A DNA stretch of 64,000 nucleotides from Opitutaceae bacterium EW11. Lineage in GTDB: Bacteria > Verrucomicrobiota > Verrucomicrobiia > Opitutales > Opitutaceae. The DNA lies in assembly GCA_003054665.1 (NCBI GenBank), contig QAYY01000001.1, positions 919,501-983,500 on the forward strand, given 5' to 3'. Of this stretch, positions 13,086 to 43,166 are shown one piece after another (position 1 is the stretch's first letter; each line of letters opens with the position of its first letter). A model generated the notes under the pieces. That model was not told the origin of the DNA. It saw nothing but the letters and a program-made list of their open reading frames with translations, and made no database searches. The translations under genes were made by a program, and so were the position numbers.

Positions 13086-13130
13086 CCGCGCTGCCGCGCG
13101 GAGAAATTGGTAGTTGGAAGTTGGTAGTTG
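13086..13130 (+). repeat. Hairpin-heptad repeat element, locus 1
   Basis: A 6-bp GC stem, CCGCGC (13086-13091) with GCGCGG (13096-13101), followed one base later by four 7-bp units GAAATTG, GTAGTTG, GAAGTTG, GTAGTTG (13103-13130) and a closing GTG. Same design as the elements at 39303, 40969 and 41103. It lies between ada and the carboxylesterase; the rest of 13131-13325 shows no gene. Confidence 0.85.
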
Positions 13131-35692: not shown

Positions 35693-38600
35693 GTGCTGCT
35701 TTCCTTTTCCCCGCCGCCGGAACTCCGTCGTGTAGCCACAGGCGTTTTCGCCCGGCTCGTGTTCGTCGCGCTCTGCGGTTTCGCGCTGCCGGGAATGGCG
35801 TTCTCCGCGGAGGAGACGCCCTCGCCTCCGCCGTCGGCCGCGCTCGGCCTGCCGCTGATGCGGACCTATCCGTTTGCCGAGATCGGCGACATTTCTCCCG
35901 GGGTCCAGATGAGCCTCGACTCGCTCGGGCGGCTCGTGCTCGCGCAGGAGCACGCGTATTTGGTGTTCGACGACAAAAACTGGACCGACCAGTACCTCGA
36001 CCGACAAAACGGGGCGAGCCTCTCCGCGGTCCTGCTCGCCCCGGACGGCACGACCTACTACGGCGGCACGAGCTCGTGGGGGACAATTGAATACACCGAT
36101 CGCGGCGAGGTGGTGCCGCACCCGATCCCCTCCGCCGCCGCCCCACCCTGGACCGACGGAAGCCAGTTCTCCCGGCTGATCGCCGATTCGACCGGCGTGT
36201 ATTTCGCCAACGATCTCGGCGCGGTGCATTACGACAAGACGACGGGACGGCAGCAGTATTTCCAGCTGCCCGAGCTGCTCTGCCTGTTCTCGCTCGACGG
36301 CACGACCTACGTCAGCGCGGGCAACCGCGGCACGCTTCGCTTCGACCTCACGACCAACACGCTCCGCCCGGTGAACGAGGGAACCAACGCCCCTCCGTTC
36401 GACGCCGCGGTGCCGTGGAGGGACGGGGAGGTGCTCGGCCGCAGTCTCTGGGGCTCGTTCCTTCTGTTCGACGGCAAGGAATTCAAACCGTGGCCGTGCG
36501 AGATCGAGCCAGCCCTCTGGTCGGGCGTCTCCCGGCTTGTCCGGCTGCCCGGGCAGCGTCTGGCCGTGCTGGTGAAAACGCACGGAATCTACCTCCTCGA
36601 CCACAACGGACGCTCCCTCCTCACGCTCGAAGGCGGAGAGTTCGCGAGCGCCACCGACATCTGCGCCGGCGAGCTCGGCGTCCTGTGGGTCGCAAGCGGC
36701 TCGGGAATCACGAAGGTCCTCTACGACGCGCCGCTCCAGGTCTTCGATCACCGGCTGGGGCTTTCGCTCAACTGGCCGTCGATCGTGATGGACCACGGGC
36801 GCACCCTCGTGCTTTCGGGCGGCACGCTCTACCAGCCGTTGCCGGGGGAGCACTCGGAGCCGACGCGTTTTCGTCCGATCGAAACCAAGCTTCCCAGTGG
36901 CGTCTGGTCCGCCGCCTCGAGCGATCACGGCCTTCTGCTCGGAAACTCGCAAGGCGCCTTCCACCGCGACAACGGCGGACGGATCACGCACGTGCTCGAC
37001 TCCTTCAACCCGCAGCGACTGATCGCGCTGGCGCCCGACACTTGCCTCGCGGTCGGTTCGGAAAAGATCGCCGTGCTGAAGTGGAACGGAGCCACGTGGG
37101 CCGTGGCTGCAGGGCCGAGCCCGGGAATCGGCTTCGCCTCGACCGTGCTGGCTCGGCCCAACGGCAGCACCTGGCTCGAGCTCGGCGTCGGCCGCGTGGG
37201 CCGCGTGCTCTGGCGCGACGGCAAGCTGACCGCGCGCGTCTTCGATTCGTTTCCGTGGAAACACCCGGTCTGGGTCGGCCTCGGGGCGATCGGCTCCGTG
37301 GTGGTGATCACGAACAATCCGACGGAGCACGTCTATTTCGATGAAGCCACCGATCAGTTTGTCGACCGCCCGGATCTGGACCGCCTGCTCGCGATGGGCC
37401 CGTACCGCTCCGTGCGACCGTACCAAACTCCCAACGGCACCATCTGGATGCCGCATGCGCGCGGCGTCTTCCGCCTGATTCCCTCCGCTTCCGGCTACGT
37501 CGTCGACGTCGGGGATCTCGATATCATCCGCGAAACGTATCCGGGACTTCAGATCGCCGGCGACGATACCTGGGTGGCGGGCTTCCGCTTCCTTTCGCGC
37601 ATCGTCCCGAAGGAAAACTACGATTCGGTGCGCCGGCCCAAGCCGCTGCTCATGTCCGTGACCGACTCGCGCTCGCGCCGGCAGCTCTTCCGTGCACTCG
37701 AACCGAACCCCGGCGCGCTGCAGAATATTCCGTATTCGAGCAACAGCCTCAGCTTCCAGTTCTTCTCGGGCACGTTCGCCCGCATCCGGTCCGGGGACTA
37801 TCAGTTCAAGCTCGATCGGGACGCCGAATGGTCGGTGCCGCTGCGCGATTCGAAGATCGCCCTCCCCGGCGTCCGCGAGGGCGCGCACCAGTTGACGGTG
37901 CGGCTCGTGGACAGCACCGGACAGATCGGCGAGCAGACTATCCTGCGCTTCAGCATCGCTCCGCCGCTTTACCGCACGTGGTACGCCTACCTGCTCTACA
38001 TCGCTTCGTCCGTCGGGCTGCTGGCGACGGGCGGCTGGTGGCTCCTCCGTCGCGCAAAACAGCGGAACGCCGATCTCGAGTCGCTCGTGCAGATCCGCAC
38101 CGCGGAACTCCAGGTGGCCGCCGAAGAAGCCCGCCAGGCCGCTAAGGCGAAGAGCCAGTTCCTCGCGAACATGTCGCACGAGATCCGAACGCCGATGAAC
38201 GGCGTGATCGGCATGTCCAACCTGCTCGTCGACACGCCCCTCAACGAGCAGCAGCGGGAGTACACGGAGATCATCCGCCGGAGCAGCGAGTCGCTCCTCA
38301 CGATCATCAACGACATCCTCGACATCTCGAAACTCGAGGCCGGCAAACTCGCGCTCGACTCGACGGATTTCGACCTCCGCGCGGCAGTAGGCGAATCGGT
38401 CGCCATCCTGGCGAATCACGCCGCCACGAAACACCTGAAGATCGACCTGGCCGTTTCGCCCGACGTGCCGTCCGCGCTCCGCGGCGATCCCGGCCGGATC
38501 CGGCAGGTGCTTCTCAATCTCATCGGCAACGCGGTGAAGTTCACGGAAAAGGGCGGCATTTCCGTCCGCGTGCTCGCCGAGCATCTGTCCCCTCCGCAAG

Positions 38601-39295
38601 AGGGCAGGATCGCGCACCTCCGTATCGAGGTGGAAGATACCGGCATCGGCATCCCGGCCGAGGCCGCCGCTCGGCTCTTCCAGGTCTTCAGCCAGGCCGA
38701 CGCCTCGACCACCCGGCGCTTCGGCGGCACCGGCCTCGGCCTCGCCATCTCCCGCCAGATCGTGGAACTGATGGGCGGCAAGATCGGCATGGTCCCGAAG
38801 GAAGGCCACGGGTCGGTCTTCTGGTTCACGCTTTCCCTGCCCGTCGCCGCGACGCCGAACCGTACGCGTCATCCGCTCGCCCAGGCGAAACCCGAGGGCC
38901 AGCGCGAATTGCTCAAGGGCCTGCGCGTGCTCGTCGCCGAGGACAACGCGGTGAATCAGCGCCTGGTCGAAGCCCAGCTCAGCCGGATCGGGTGCAAACT
39001 CCGTTGCGTCGGCAACGGTCTCCAGGCCATCGACGCCCTGCGCGAGGGCGAATACGACGTCGTGCTGATGGACTGCCAGATGCCCGAACTGGACGGCTAC
39101 GAGGCCACCCGCCGCATCCGTGAGTCCGGCCGGACGCAGATTCCAATCATCGCCATGACCGCCCACGCCATGATCGGCGACCGCGAGAAGTGTCTGGAGG
39201 CCGGGATGGACGACTACCTCGCAAAGCCCGTGCGGCTTCCCGATCTCGAAGCCGCCCTCATCCGCGCCGCCGAGAGATCTCTGGCGAAAGAGTGA
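35693..39295 (+). CDS. Propeller-type hybrid histidine kinase (HTCS-like, no HTH)
   Basis: 1200 residues from GTG 35693, with an N-terminal hydrophobic signal. About 700 periplasmic residues form beta-propeller blades (weakly repeated, e.g. [20 protein letters not shown] and [14 protein letters not shown]-like strands). A Y_Y_Y domain follows ([32 protein letters not shown]), then one membrane helix (about 763-783). The kinase has phospho-His829 in [11 protein letters not shown] and an HATPase with [17 protein letters not shown]. The receiver has Asp1127 in [11 protein letters not shown]. The layout is like the hybrid two-component regulators of glycan loci, but it lacks the C-terminal AraC helix-turn-helix that makes those one-protein regulators. 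It stands 288 bp after GH26 and may sense its products. Confidence 0.9.
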
Positions 39296-39302
39296 GCGGA
39301 GG

Positions 39303-39369
39303 CCACGGCTCCGCGGTGGAGAAGTTGGGAATTCGAAGTTGGAAGTTGGTGTTTTGTAGTTGGTAGTCG
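39303..39369 (+). repeat. Hairpin-heptad repeat element, locus 2
   Basis: Begins 7 bp after the kinase stop with an imperfect GC stem (CCACGG with CGGTGG, 39303-39319), then seven 7-bp units, 39321-39369: GAAGTTG, GGAATTC, GAAGTTG, GAAGTTG, GTGTTTT, GTAGTTG, GTAGTCG, then GTG. The middle unit is degenerate but keeps the 7-bp phase. Confidence 0.85.
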
Positions 39370-39522: not shown

Positions 39523-40353
39523 ATGCGCGCCGCCTCGACCACTCGCCATCCGTACGCCGCTCCGCCGGCGGCGTTGCGCGCACACGTCGACCGGATCTGG
39601 TCGTGGCAGAGCACAGCCGACGCGTCCTTGCCTACCCTTCTGCCCGGTACGGGCGCCGAACTCGTCGTCTCGCTCGGAGCTCCGCTTGCGATGGAAGAAG
39701 GAGGGCGGACAACACACCTCCCGGATGTGTTTGTCTTCTGCCTCCGCAGCGGTTTCTGCGCGCTCCGGGCCACGGGTTCGGTCGACCTGATCTCGGTGCG
39801 ATTTCGGGGAAACGGCCTTCGCCATTTCAGTGCCTGGACGATGGCCGACCTCGCCGACCGGCTCACCCCGGGCTCCGTCCTTTTTGGCGCAATCGCCGAC
39901 GACCTCGTTCCGCAACTGCGCACGTTGCCTTCGTTCGAACGGCGAGCCGAGGCACTGGCGAAGTTTCTCGAAGGGCGTCTCGCACGTTTTCTCCGCGACG
40001 ATGCCCGGGAGGACCGCCTCGCCCAGGCCCTCTACTACGGCGAGCCCACCCTGCCGGTGCGTCATCTCGCCTCTGAGCTGGGCACCAGCGTCCGCCAACT
40101 TGAGCGATCGCTCCTCCGAACGAGCGGACTTTCTCCCAAACGCTACCGCCGCATCGCACGGCTTCACCTCACGATGCGCGACCTGCATCTGCGCGGAACC
40201 GCGGACTACCTCGACGCCGCGCTCGCGCGTGGCTTCCACGACCAGGCCCACTTCATTCACGAGTGCCGCGATCTGATCGGGCGAACGCCCCGCCAGATTC
40301 TCACGCCGGCTCAGTTGAAGTCGCATTTCTACAATACGAGTCTCCGAGCGTGA
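39523..40353 (+). CDS. AraC-family transcriptional regulator (DUF6597 N-domain)
   Basis: 276 residues. The N-terminal part (HPYAAPPAALRAHVDRIWSW, LPGTGAELVVSLG and VRFRGNGLRHF) is the DUF6597-type ligand domain seen in many small AraC regulators. The C-terminal part has two helix-turn-helix units: VRHLASELGTSVRQLERSLL and DYLDAALARGFHDQAHFIHE, then FRDLIG-like RDLIGRTPRQI. It sits between the hybrid kinase and the ABM-DUF1805 gene; the latter starts 26 bp after its stop and is probably in the same operon and under its control. Confidence 0.85.
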   Translation: MRAASTTRHPYAAPPAALRAHVDRIWSWQSTADASLPTLLPGTGAELVVSLGAPLAMEEGGRTTHLPDVFVFCLRSGFCALRATGSVDLISVRFRGNGLRHFSAWTMADLADRLTPGSVLFGAIADDLVPQLRTLPSFERRAEALAKFLEGRLARFLRDDAREDRLAQALYYGEPTLPVRHLASELGTSVRQLERSLLRTSGLSPKRYRRIARLHLTMRDLHLRGTADYLDAALARGFHDQAHFIHECRDLIGRTPRQILTPAQLKSHFYNTSLRA

Positions 40354-40379
40354 GATACCCTGGTGCGTCACTCACGCAC

Positions 40380-40964
40380 ATGGCATCCATCATCGCGAAA
40401 CTCACCGCCCGCCCGGGCAAGTCAGCCGCCCTCGAAGCCATTCTTCGGGAGCTTGTCGCCGCCACGGCCAAGGAGCCGGGAGCCGTCGTCTACGACCTGC
40501 TCCGACCCGAAGGACAGGAGAACGTGTTTGTCGTCACGGAGCGGTACGCCTCGGCGGCCGCCCGCGAGAGCCACCTCGCGTCCGAGCATCTCAAAACCGC
40601 TCTGGCGAAAATCGGCGATTGCCTCGCCGGCGCGCCCGATATCCAGCTCCTCGAGCCGCTCACCGGCATCCGCCACGAATCTCGGACGGAAAACGGCAAA
40701 CCCGTCCACGTCGCAGTGCTGCCGATCGGGCCCGTCAATCTGGTCTACGCCCAAACGCCGAACGGCCTTCTGGCCTGCGGTGCGCTGGATCCCGCCGCGC
40801 TCGAGCGTTTCGGCATCGCCGCCGCGCGTGTGAAACCGGCAGGCGCTTCGGTCGCGAACTATCAGGACCTGCTCGCCGGAAGCGTTCGCGAGGCCAACGC
40901 CCCCGCGCAAGCCCGCGGTATCCGCGTTGGCATGACGGGAGAGGAAGCGCTGAAGCGGCTGTAG
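40380..40964 (+). CDS. ABM antibiotic/quinol monooxygenase fused to DUF1805 (YunC-like)
   Basis: 194 residues in two domains. Residues 1-95 are an ABM ferredoxin-like fold (ASIIAKLTARPGKSAALEAI, ATAKEPGAVVYDLLRP, NVFVVTERYASAAARESHLA), as in YgiN-type quinol monooxygenases, normally a stand-alone protein of about 100 residues. Residues 105-194 (KPVHVAVLPIGPVNLVYAQT, GLLACGALDPAALERFGIAA and a final RGIRVGMTGEEALKRL) have the shape of DUF1805/YunC, a small protein of unknown role. The frame is open without a break and the linker is about 15 residues, so it reads as a true fusion. Tandem with the AraC gene. Confidence 0.75.
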   Translation: MASIIAKLTARPGKSAALEAILRELVAATAKEPGAVVYDLLRPEGQENVFVVTERYASAAARESHLASEHLKTALAKIGDCLAGAPDIQLLEPLTGIRHESRTENGKPVHVAVLPIGPVNLVYAQTPNGLLACGALDPAALERFGIAAARVKPAGASVANYQDLLAGSVREANAPAQARGIRVGMTGEEALKRL

Positions 40965-40968
40965 CGGG

Positions 40969-41042
40969 CCGCGCCTGCGGCGCGGGGAAGTTGGAAGTTC
41001 GAAGTTGGTAGTTAGTAGTTGGTAGTTAGTAGTTGGTAGTTG
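40969..41042 (+). repeat. Hairpin-heptad repeat element, locus 3
   Basis: Begins 4 bp after the ABM gene stop: perfect stem CCGCGCC-TGC-GGCGCGG (40969-40985), one G, then eight exact 7-bp units (40987-41042): GAAGTTG, GAAGTTC, GAAGTTG, GTAGTTA, GTAGTTG, GTAGTTA, GTAGTTG, GTAGTTG, closed by GTG. Confidence 0.9.
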
Positions 41043-41102
41043 GTGACCGCACGGAAGATCCCGTGACACCACTCGCATCGCACTGCGGCGTTTGCTGGAC
41101 AC

Positions 41103-41153
41103 CAATTTCCAACTTCCAACTTCCAACTTCTCCGCGCCCCGTCCGGGGCGCGG
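41103..41153 (-). repeat. Hairpin-heptad repeat element, locus 4
   Basis: Reverse orientation, facing locus 3. Read on the minus strand: perfect 9-bp stem CCGCGCCCC/GGGGCGCGG (loop GGAC) at 41153-41132, beginning 3 bp after the metalloprotease stop codon, then four units: GAAGTTG three times and GAAATTG (41130-41103), closed by GTG. Confidence 0.9.
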
Positions 41154-41156
41154 TCA

Positions 41157-43166
41157 TCACCAATAAATCCCGATCGTCACGGGCAGGTGGCCCACCTTCG
41201 TGGCGTTGGCGGCCCAGACTTCGACGTAATAGTTGCCCGCCGACGTCGGTGTGCCGGAAAGGAAGCCGGTCTTTTTGTCGAAGGAAACGCCGGGAGGCAG
41301 CGCACCGGTCACGGCGTACTGGTACACGCCGCCTGTCGCCGCGATCTGGTACGAGAACGGCACGCCCACGTTGCCGTTCGCCCGGTTCGAACTGGTGATC
41401 GAGGGCGTGGGGTCCTGCGCCGGCGGCGGAGGCGGGGGCTGCGGCCCCGAGACCGGAATCGTTCCCGTCAGCGTGTAGGCGCCGAGGCTGCCGTAGTTGC
41501 TGTAGCCGTCGGTCAGCGGATTCCCGTGTCCGACTCCCTGCACGACGGTGTAGTACGTTCCCGCGGCGAGGCTGATCGAGAGCGAGGCGTTGAAGGTCTG
41601 GTCGGGGCTCGACTGCATCACCACGTTTCCAGCGGAGTCGAAAACCTGGAGCTGGACGTCGAGGTTCGGCCGGACAGGCGCGGGGTTCGCCGTCAGCGTC
41701 AACGTTCCGCCTCCGGTGGTGAACCGAAACCAGTCCGCACGTCCTGTCTGGGCGATGACACCCGCTTGATTCAGCGCGCCGCCGGACACGCTCGTGGCGC
41801 TCGCGGCATTCCCGCCCACGCCGTCGGACACGAAACCAAATCCGTTGGTCGTGTTGCCGATGATCGCAACGTCGTCCTCGTGGTTGTTGGCGTTGGCGTA
41901 CTCTCCCTTGCTCCACTGGGTGATCGCGACGCCGTACGCGGCGCCCATGATCGGCGCCCAGCTGGTCGCGCCAGAACCCTGGCCGCGATAGTATTCTTCC
42001 GCCGGAGACGTCCGCCCGTCGTGCGAGAGACCAAAGGTGTGGCCGGCTTCGTGGGAGATCGCCTCCGCCACGCCTTCCACGCTCTGGTTGAAGACCCAGG
42101 CGGGAATCGTGCTGGAAAAGATGCGCGTCCCCGCCTGGGCGAAACTGTTGACGTACGCCACGCCGCCGGACCCCGGCGATGCGGTGTCGGTCGGCGTGAC
42201 GATCACGCGGATACGCCGACCGACGGGCGCGTTATTGTAGCGCGAGACGTCGGTCGTCACGTCGATGTTGAACGGCGCGTAGTCCTCCTTCACGCGCTTC
42301 CACACCTGCGCGATTTCGTCGGAGGTGAGTGGGGAGGCCTGCGCGGCAATCGTCGCTCCTTTGGCCCAGGCCGGATCGGAGACGACTTCGCCGTCGAAAT
42401 CCATGTACAACACCGCCGTCGCCGCAGGCCGGCTGCTCAAAACGGGCACCGCCGCGCTGGAGGTCGAGGCAGCGGGCTGCGCCGCCGGGGCCTGCTGCGT
42501 TCTCCCATCGCCCGGCATCGGAAAACATACCACGTCGGAAAGCCGCTTCTCGCTCAGCACGAGCCGGCCGTCCGCACCGGGAGCGAGTTCGTAGGCAAGG
42601 TTGTCGTCGGGCAGCTGCACGAGCGCAGCCAAGTCCAGCCCGTTGGTGCCGAGGGTGAAAGAGCCTCTCTGTCCGCCGGTGAGTTCTCCGCCCGCGCGAA
42701 TCCAGCCGGTGCTGTCGGGTTGCACAAGATTGACGCGCCCGCGGACGGAATCGCCTCCGAGCAACGGCAGCGTGACCTCCTGTCCGGCCTTCAAATCTTC
42801 GATGGCTGCCACCGATAATCCGTCGATCACGGCCCTGCGTCCGCGCCTCGCCTCCTCCGGGGCCGCCGGATCCGTCGCGACCCTCGTATCCAGCTTCGTG
42901 CCCTGCGTCACCGCGGGTGGTTTCCAGAGTGCCGGGGCCTTCGCGGACGACCCGCCTTCGCCGGCGCTCGCCCCCGGCGAAGGAGCGGCGGTGGCCGTTT
43001 CCGCTGCAGCTGAGCGAGCCGTCGGTGCACCGGGTGCCGAAGAGGGAGCGGCCGTGCCGGAGCCATGCGGTTGCGCCTGGGCGCGCCACGCGAGCAGGCC
43101 TCCGAGAGAACCGAGGATCATCAACGCGGCGGCCGCCCGCAGCTTCGTGTTTCGTACAATCGACAT
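41157..43166 (-). CDS. Exported metzincin zinc protease with putative Ig domain
   Basis: 669 residues with a signal peptide (AAALMILGSLGGLLAWRAQA). Residues 30-100 are a low-complexity Ala/Pro/Ser stretch; a prodomain-like part follows. The catalytic zinc site is HEAGHTFGLSH (His372, His376 and His382, Glu373 as base), the extended metzincin motif, with a later IMGAAYG that could be the Met-turn. About 170 residues of jelly-roll (pre-peptidase C-terminal-like: ADWFRFTTGGGTLTLTANPA) follow, then a Pro spacer and an Ig-like putative-Ig domain (GALPPGVSFDKKTGFLSGTP). It is probably secreted; no PEP-CTERM tail. Confidence 0.87.
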   Translation of the reverse strand: MSIVRNTKLRAAAALMILGSLGGLLAWRAQAQPHGSGTAAPSSAPGAPTARSAAAETATAAPSPGASAGEGGSSAKAPALWKPPAVTQGTKLDTRVATDPAAPEEARRGRRAVIDGLSVAAIEDLKAGQEVTLPLLGGDSVRGRVNLVQPDSTGWIRAGGELTGGQRGSFTLGTNGLDLAALVQLPDDNLAYELAPGADGRLVLSEKRLSDVVCFPMPGDGRTQQAPAAQPAASTSSAAVPVLSSRPAATAVLYMDFDGEVVSDPAWAKGATIAAQASPLTSDEIAQVWKRVKEDYAPFNIDVTTDVSRYNNAPVGRRIRVIVTPTDTASPGSGGVAYVNSFAQAGTRIFSSTIPAWVFNQSVEGVAEAISHEAGHTFGLSHDGRTSPAEEYYRGQGSGATSWAPIMGAAYGVAITQWSKGEYANANNHEDDVAIIGNTTNGFGFVSDGVGGNAASATSVSGGALNQAGVIAQTGRADWFRFTTGGGTLTLTANPAPVRPNLDVQLQVFDSAGNVVMQSSPDQTFNASLSISLAAGTYYTVVQGVGHGNPLTDGYSNYGSLGAYTLTGTIPVSGPQPPPPPPAQDPTPSITSSNRANGNVGVPFSYQIAATGGVYQYAVTGALPPGVSFDKKTGFLSGTPTSAGNYYVEVWAANATKVGHLPVTIGIYW

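Follow-up and report, generated by a model that had tools for sequence, protein, structure and literature searches.

Short-unit arrays in an Opitutaceae genome are probably the ends of very small mobile elements that carry the rRNA intervening-sequence protein

The window, by which we mean the whole 64,000-nucleotide stretch of the genome of Opitutaceae bacterium EW11 that was analysed, holds four copies of a composite repeat in which a GC-rich stem-loop is followed by an array of short units of the GAAGTTG or GTAGTTG kind. Two of the copies face each other in an ORF-less element (40969..41153, no strand assigned) that spans the whole interval between two stop codons, those of a gene with ABM and DUF1805 domains on its left (40263-40964, + strand) and of a reprolysin-like gene with an Ig-type domain on its right (41157-43166, − strand). 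From left to right the element consists of a GC stem-loop of 7 bp (40969..40985, + strand), an array of eight units G[AT]AGTT[GAC] (40987..41042, + strand), a spacer (41043..41102), an array of four units (41103..41130, − strand) and a GC stem-loop of 9 bp (41132..41153, − strand). Its ends are terminal inverted repeats that by prediction can pair into a stem, and the full interval is predicted to fold as one long stem via both arrays (z -8.25). The other two copies, both on the + strand, are solo ends: one (39303..39369) joins a weak stem to seven units just after a hybrid histidine kinase gene (35693-39295), and the other (13086..13130) has a 6-bp stem (13086-13101) and four units. No partner array occurs within 350 bp of either.

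A sequence-only reading of this DNA had listed these four copies, and all are present. Its description largely holds: GTG closes all four arrays, the two facing arrays lie 60 bp apart (about 60 in that reading), and three stems begin within 3-7 bp of a stop codon, at 7 bp (39303), 4 bp (40969) and 3 bp (41153, from the stop codon of the − strand gene). A single base separates stem and first unit in every copy. The stem lengths that it gave, 5-9 bp, fit 13086, 40969 and 41153, but the stem at 39303-39319 has only 4 bp free of mismatches (7 bp if one is allowed). The units were also said to be exact, which they are not throughout; GGAATTC and GTGTTTT occur in 39321-39369, and GTAGTTA and GAAGTTC in 40987-41042. 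The arrays stand well clear of chance, with 20 matches to GWAGTTGGWAGTTGG at up to 3 mismatches in the window against 1.72 expected and a maximum of 5 in 100 shuffles.

The window copies belong to a large family. Genome-wide, GWAGTTGGWAGTTGG with up to 2 mismatches has 310 matches, compared with 25 for the reversed pattern, which supplies the further copies that the sequence-only reading had proposed as a test. We found 77 arrays in the window and 40 other stretches, 35 of them picked around matches with 0 or 1 mismatch; the remaining five (L066-L070), picked irrespective of matches, gave a single array in their combined 100 kb. Arrays with a neighbour within 700 bp are overwhelmingly convergent (26, vs 3 in another order). 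No partner at threshold was found for 25 of the 77, and eight of these have a decayed partner, always on the inner side and never on the outer. A stem of at least 6 bp, no more than 4 bases upstream of the array, is present in 47/77, with a spacing of exactly one base in 39 of the 47; the same search succeeded at 62 of 2000 random places and in 27 of 770 shuffled upstream stretches. No two of the 47 stems have the same sequence, so that another of the tests proposed in the sequence-only reading, stems that vary while still pairing, is borne out, but because they were selected for pairing this diversity is not a full test of covariation. The other 30 arrays have no 6-bp stem.

The enrichment behind stop codons, a further test set by that reading, is also borne out. 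The outward neighbour is a stop codon for 50 of 71 arrays, with the first unit within 30 bp of it in 34 of the 50, and a start codon for 21 (random intergenic points: 574 and 527, respectively); the genes behind these counts came from a simple script (473 genes, 77% coverage), and six of the 77 arrays lie inside a called gene. Moreover, 13 of 26 array pairs sit between convergent genes, compared with 50 of 250 gaps longer than 100 bp. These figures, together with stems that differ yet pair and a strong predicted RNA fold, are what one would bring forward for a 3'-end RNA element, a hairpin and array behind the stop codon that ends transcription or protects the mRNA, acting in both directions between convergent genes, and the sequence-only reading had offered a transcription or mRNA-end function of this kind. 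Several observations are left unaccounted for by it. An intrinsic terminator should have a U-tract behind its stem, where we find G[AT]AGTTG units; the start-facing arrays and the stemless arrays have no place in such a scheme; at one stretch (L064) each end of the element starts only after a terminator that is already complete, T-run included; elements sit inside the atp operon; and the protein gene carried by related elements, described below, goes unexplained. We therefore consider a 3'-end function quite improbable as the explanation of the repeat. Closeness to stop codons is what elements occupying the gaps between genes would show.

The protein gene in question is PF05635, annotated as the four-helix-bundle "23S rRNA intervening-sequence protein" (IVP). 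All three copies in the genome (3/3) lie between inverted short-unit arrays, each with its own unit. One of the units is GAAGTTG: on contig C45 a pair of arrays 460 bp apart encloses a PF05635 gene, the sole gene-bearing GAAGTTG copy found in this genome. At L074 (G000:C4:216969) the IVP gene occupies the gap between atpA and atpG and is flanked by inverted 8-bp units of the GGCTGAAG type, and at L075 (G000:C3:609093) an apparently broken IVP gene, neighboured by aspartokinase-like and thrC-like genes, lies between inverted 7-bp arrays of the GTCAGAG type (these four neighbour names were assigned from sequence). The GGCTGAAG family, like the GAAGTTG family, has many ORF-less inverted pairs in the genome, with 208 matches against 37 in the control and matches also in G001, G002 and G006; among the matches listed we counted by eye 13 neighbours in plus-then-minus order and one in plus-plus order. 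The gene-bearing element encodes IVP alone.

We consider it likely that there is a class of very small mobile elements carrying IVP, and that the composite repeat forms their ends. A complete element would measure ~400-550 bp and consist of the IVP gene (PF05635/TIGR02436) with an array of short units, mostly of 7 bp, on one side and its inverted counterpart on the other. The window copies would belong to the GAAGTTG family of this class as gene-less or solo-end members: we take 40969-41153 to be an ORF-less element, and 39303-39369 and 13086-13130 to be solo ends. None of the window copies has an IVP gene between ends, and insertion in 23S rRNA is not seen here, the copies at 39303 and 40969-41153 adjoining protein genes.

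The association of gene and array extends to a related genome. Of 38 genomes (own included), only our own and G005 are rich in GWAGTTG arrays (197 and 110 matches), the next being G004 with 16 matches vs 10 in its control; correspondingly, among 36 genomes (own included), a close relative of the C45 IVP is found only in the same two. The G005 relative has 64% identity, the same neighbours and the same unit, the next protein by E-value having 37% identity. Because the two genomes belong to one family, shared descent may explain part of this link. In the 20 stretches taken from G005, all 16 pairs of array neighbours are convergent, and a stem accompanies seven of 38 arrays, 31/38 having no 6-bp stem. 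The GC hairpin, which stood out in the sequence-only reading, is thus mostly a trait of the lineage of the window and does not define the repeat.

IVP genes are common (220 of the 288 genomes of the phylum have PF05635, often more than once), and inverted repeats accompany them widely. We scored 300 bp on each side of the IVP domain in a named sample from many phyla, made up of the best 80 of 468 loci found via the motif S[IV][PGA][SA]NIAEG and hence not a random draw; with L170 left out for too short a flank, 79 loci were usable. An inverted score of at least 14 was reached by 64 of the 79, at least 16 by 57 and at least 20 by 41, compared with 36, 25 and 10 of 774 when mates were shuffled between loci. 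At score 14, direct repeats within the same locus gave 7/79 and far flanks, 800-1100 bp away, 0/72. Among the loci above threshold are two records of Patescibacteria type and one from Methanophagales that barely exceeds 14 (14.5). Every IVP match in five genomes of the same family was scored as well, and 21 of these 25 genes have inverted repeats at score 14 (far flanks 0/25); thus 15/79 named and 4/25 same-family loci fall below threshold. Loci from the phylum were likewise chosen as the best by E-value, not drawn at random, and an earlier comparison of 33 IVP loci used no threshold. The strongest tandem period is 7 or 14 in 57 of the 79 named loci, and across the class units are mostly of 7 bp, some being of 6, 8 or more. 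A tblastn search with one IVP as query gave no match in phages.

Within one element both ends match as inverted repeats, and units vary between elements. Read on the gene strand, left arrays contain 11.8% C and 32.7% G, and G exceeds C in 81 of the 87 passing loci (of 111 tested; L092, at a contig end, was left out of this comparison and of that between unit and IVP). Being poor in C, each end has little to pair with besides its partner array, and because the units are tandem the pairing is possible in any register; in the predicted fold of a cyanobacterial element, from Trichormus, the arrays do pair (z -2.96). The relatedness of the IVPs is a weak predictor of the unit (Mantel rho 0.205, reached in 0/500 permutations; 101 loci, namely the 87 passing loci just mentioned less L075, plus 15 of the 21 passing same-family loci), which argues against a fixed correspondence between protein and unit. 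A recognition code linking IVP to unit was accordingly set aside, its signal being weak. Units often differ even between IVPs that are 70-77% identical; since the ends of each element nevertheless agree, pairing rather than sequence is favoured as the thing kept, and this suggests that one end of an element is copied from the other. The result is consistent with the view of the sequence-only reading that structure is conserved while sequence changes.

Evidence that such elements move comes from three kinds of comparison. First, three sites on cyanobacterial plasmids are found both with and without an element. At the first, an insert directly behind a stop codon is present on Trichormus variabilis and Scytonema plasmids and missing from three plasmids with 97% identical flanks; the Scytonema copy is shorter by exactly two units, and on a Nostoc plasmid the copy at this site is decayed. 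A candidate 5-bp target-site duplication, GTAAT, is seen here, at one of the three sites; at the second and third, the bases adjoining the junction differ too. In comparison with MITEs, then, inverted ends are present and a candidate duplication is found at one site of three. We also observed that, at the site which the Nostoc C052 element occupies on its plasmid, two further plasmids (L218 and L219) have inserts that lack an ORF and show inverted short units of different types; the L219 insert apparently has GC hairpins as well.

Second, the atpA-atpG gap, compared in 18 of 23 genomes, all having both genes, measures 9-65 bp in 15 of the 18. The three wider gaps are those of our own genome (450 bp), of G006, where 440 bp hold an IVP gene of its own and units of another type, and of G010, where 106 bp hold units of a third type but no gene. 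As a separate observation, G006 has two IVP genes around its atp genes, L238 (G006:C18:354465) and L243 (G006:C18:353119), one of them in the atpA-atpG gap. For the window element, the genes on its two sides were found together in 0 of 23 genomes, so that no empty site was found for it. Third, contigs C8 and C11 each hold an ORF-less copy, the two being alike over ~80 bp inside and unrelated outside, and a sister of 40969-41153 at C4:80795-81000 has in common with it both arrays and, without a change, the 23 bases of spacer that adjoin the right array (read on the − strand). ORF-less copies are thus duplicated within the genome, given sites, often those that follow a stop codon and precede another gene, are occupied by an element in some cases and vacant in others, and the arrays gain or lose length by whole units. 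The suggestion of a mobile non-coding element is therefore supported as to mobility, given the duplicated insides and the filled and empty sites of the gene-bearing kind; "non-coding" describes the window copies correctly, yet the class in which we place them bears a protein gene.

A change by whole units is equally what plain slippage would produce, and heptamer arrays of Xanthomonas and Nostoc have been described without a gene link in the available portion of PMC4692102. One could accordingly suppose that these are slippage-made heptamer repeats kept for their effect on DNA structure, and that IVP genes are near them by chance or have hitchhiked. Such repeats should have neither a preferred order (convergent in 26/29 cases in our own genome and in all 16 of G005) nor matched ends, empty sites and duplicated insides, and we regard this explanation as very improbable.

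Short paired palindromes between genes also recall REP/REPIN sequences moved by a RAYT tyrosine transposase. The stems here are GC palindromes, extragenic, paired and inverted, the genome has two Y1_Tnp matches, and O. terrae is described as rich in GTAG repeats (PMC3733652, as excerpted). The details disagree: GTAG lies within 8 bases of the stem in only 4 of 39 cases, the stems, unlike those of a REP family, all differ (47/47) and are mostly missing in G005, no GWAGTTG array at threshold lies within 1.5 kb of either Y1_Tnp gene, and one of these genes has inverted repeats of its own. A role for RAYT is on these grounds extremely improbable, neither the GTAG tag nor a placement of arrays beside Y1_Tnp genes having been supported. 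The gene just mentioned, for a RAYT-like tyrosine transposase, lies between 29-bp inverted repeats that are 97% identical (L071, 1383-1411 and 2430-2458) and unrelated to the arrays.

What the IVP itself does bears on how the elements of the proposed class may move. A model of the L116 protein (pLDDT 97) is a four-helix bundle like 2gsc, the structure of the X. campestris IVP, and 2rld, and no transposase fold was among the PDB matches listed for it. The protein is under purifying selection in four measurable pairs of seven (dN/dS 0.05-0.17); of the other three, C052/edaphicum gave no value, Trichormus/Scytonema gave 0.92 on very few changes, and own/G005 was saturated (pN/pS 0.35). Separately, 23S rRNA IVP is named in a figure legend on CRISPR-adaptation associations in the accessible part of PMC10910872; as a speculation, heptamer arrays beside IVP genes could be a source of such links.

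Among the lower-ranked fold matches are the Avd chains of diversity-generating retroelements (DGRs; 4dwl, 8ub7 and 8ube, TM ~0.78), a resemblance also given for PF05635 in the available text of PMC10053308, and against the NCBIfam Avd model one plasmid IVP scores 29.8 bits, short of the cut-off of 80. The elements might then be retroelements, their RNA copied by a reverse transcriptase with IVP as an Avd-like cofactor, all the more as the two genes occur together: IVP is carried by 103/115 RT-bearing vs 117/173 RT-less genomes (odds ratio 4.1, p 1.6e-5). However, our own genome has no RVT_1 match, the identity to Avd is ~14-18%, and RVT_1 is absent from 117 of the 220 IVP-bearing genomes of the phylum sample, some of which have up to 16 IVP genes, a count that leaves past, foreign or very divergent reverse transcriptases outside. 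We consider the retroelement explanation unlikely. A reverse transcriptase in the same genome seems unnecessary, which favours copying at the DNA level; movement of the elements by fold-back copying during replication is accordingly the mechanism that we favour, tentatively and with considerable doubt.

In the reading proposed here, the pairing of the ends, as RNA and/or single-stranded DNA, would be under selection and their sequence would not. IVP may bind the arrays and drive copying into new intergenic sites, and may move ORF-less copies in trans. The stem would let an insert be tolerated in operon transcripts, by analogy with rRNA intervening sequences, which RNase III cuts out. The inverted heptamer arrays give IVP genes a testable genomic setting, and the tie between the two may explain orphan heptamer repeats that have been described with no function assigned; it also points to mobile DNA that lacks both a known type of transposase and ends of constant sequence.

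Several known systems share parts of this picture, and a literature search, with partial coverage of subscription journals and preprints, showed, among the papers listed, none that connects IVP genes to inverted heptamer arrays. REP/REPIN sequences with RAYT (PMC3733652 and PMC3116915, in the parts available) are likewise short, extragenic, inverted units of miniature mobile DNA; unlike them, the repeats described here follow no GTAG tag rule, have no common stem sequence and do not lie beside Y1_Tnp genes. DGR Avd is similar in fold to IVP and is set apart by the low identity and by the lack of a reverse transcriptase in our genome. The TAACTGA repeats of Beggiatoaceae (PMC4679880) are, like ours, abundant intergenic tandem heptamers; they are direct, with one indirect repeat, and four-helix proteins, intervening sequences and S23 are unmentioned in the accessible portion of that paper. 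Closer are the G-rich heptamers of Xanthomonas (GGGAATC) and Nostoc (GGGGAYT), whose arrays and length variation resemble those found here (PMC4692102). As excerpted, that study reports 70 close convergent pairs in one Xanthomonas genome and 75 in another, with most arrays on the coding strand and 0-50 bp past a stop codon, gives no link to mobile elements or IVP and leaves the function open.

The closest likeness is to the intervening sequence (IVS) of Coxiella burnetii, which according to the available text of PMC4990558 has 428 nt, an S23p gene, terminal inverted repeats with a 28-bp stem and, ahead of the gene, tandem heptamers whose number varies between strains; it is called selfish there, and what rRNA intervening sequences do is described as still unclear. 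Unlike them, the elements described here are intergenic and lie in operons of protein genes; most of the loci tested have an array on each side, the unit families are numerous, ORF-less copies are abundant and, in this lineage, GC stems are present. By a small margin we lean toward a broader reading, in which these are pan-bacterial minimal mobile elements of ~450 bp (the archaeal record just over threshold being the one exception), with an Avd-like four-helix bundle as their sole protein and with ends that are set not by any constant sequence but by the mutual pairing of freely drifting, C-poor heptamer arrays. In this reading the orphan arrays of heptamers and the paired repeats that lie between genes in many genomes would be non-autonomous copies of such elements, and rRNA intervening sequences would be their best-known special case.
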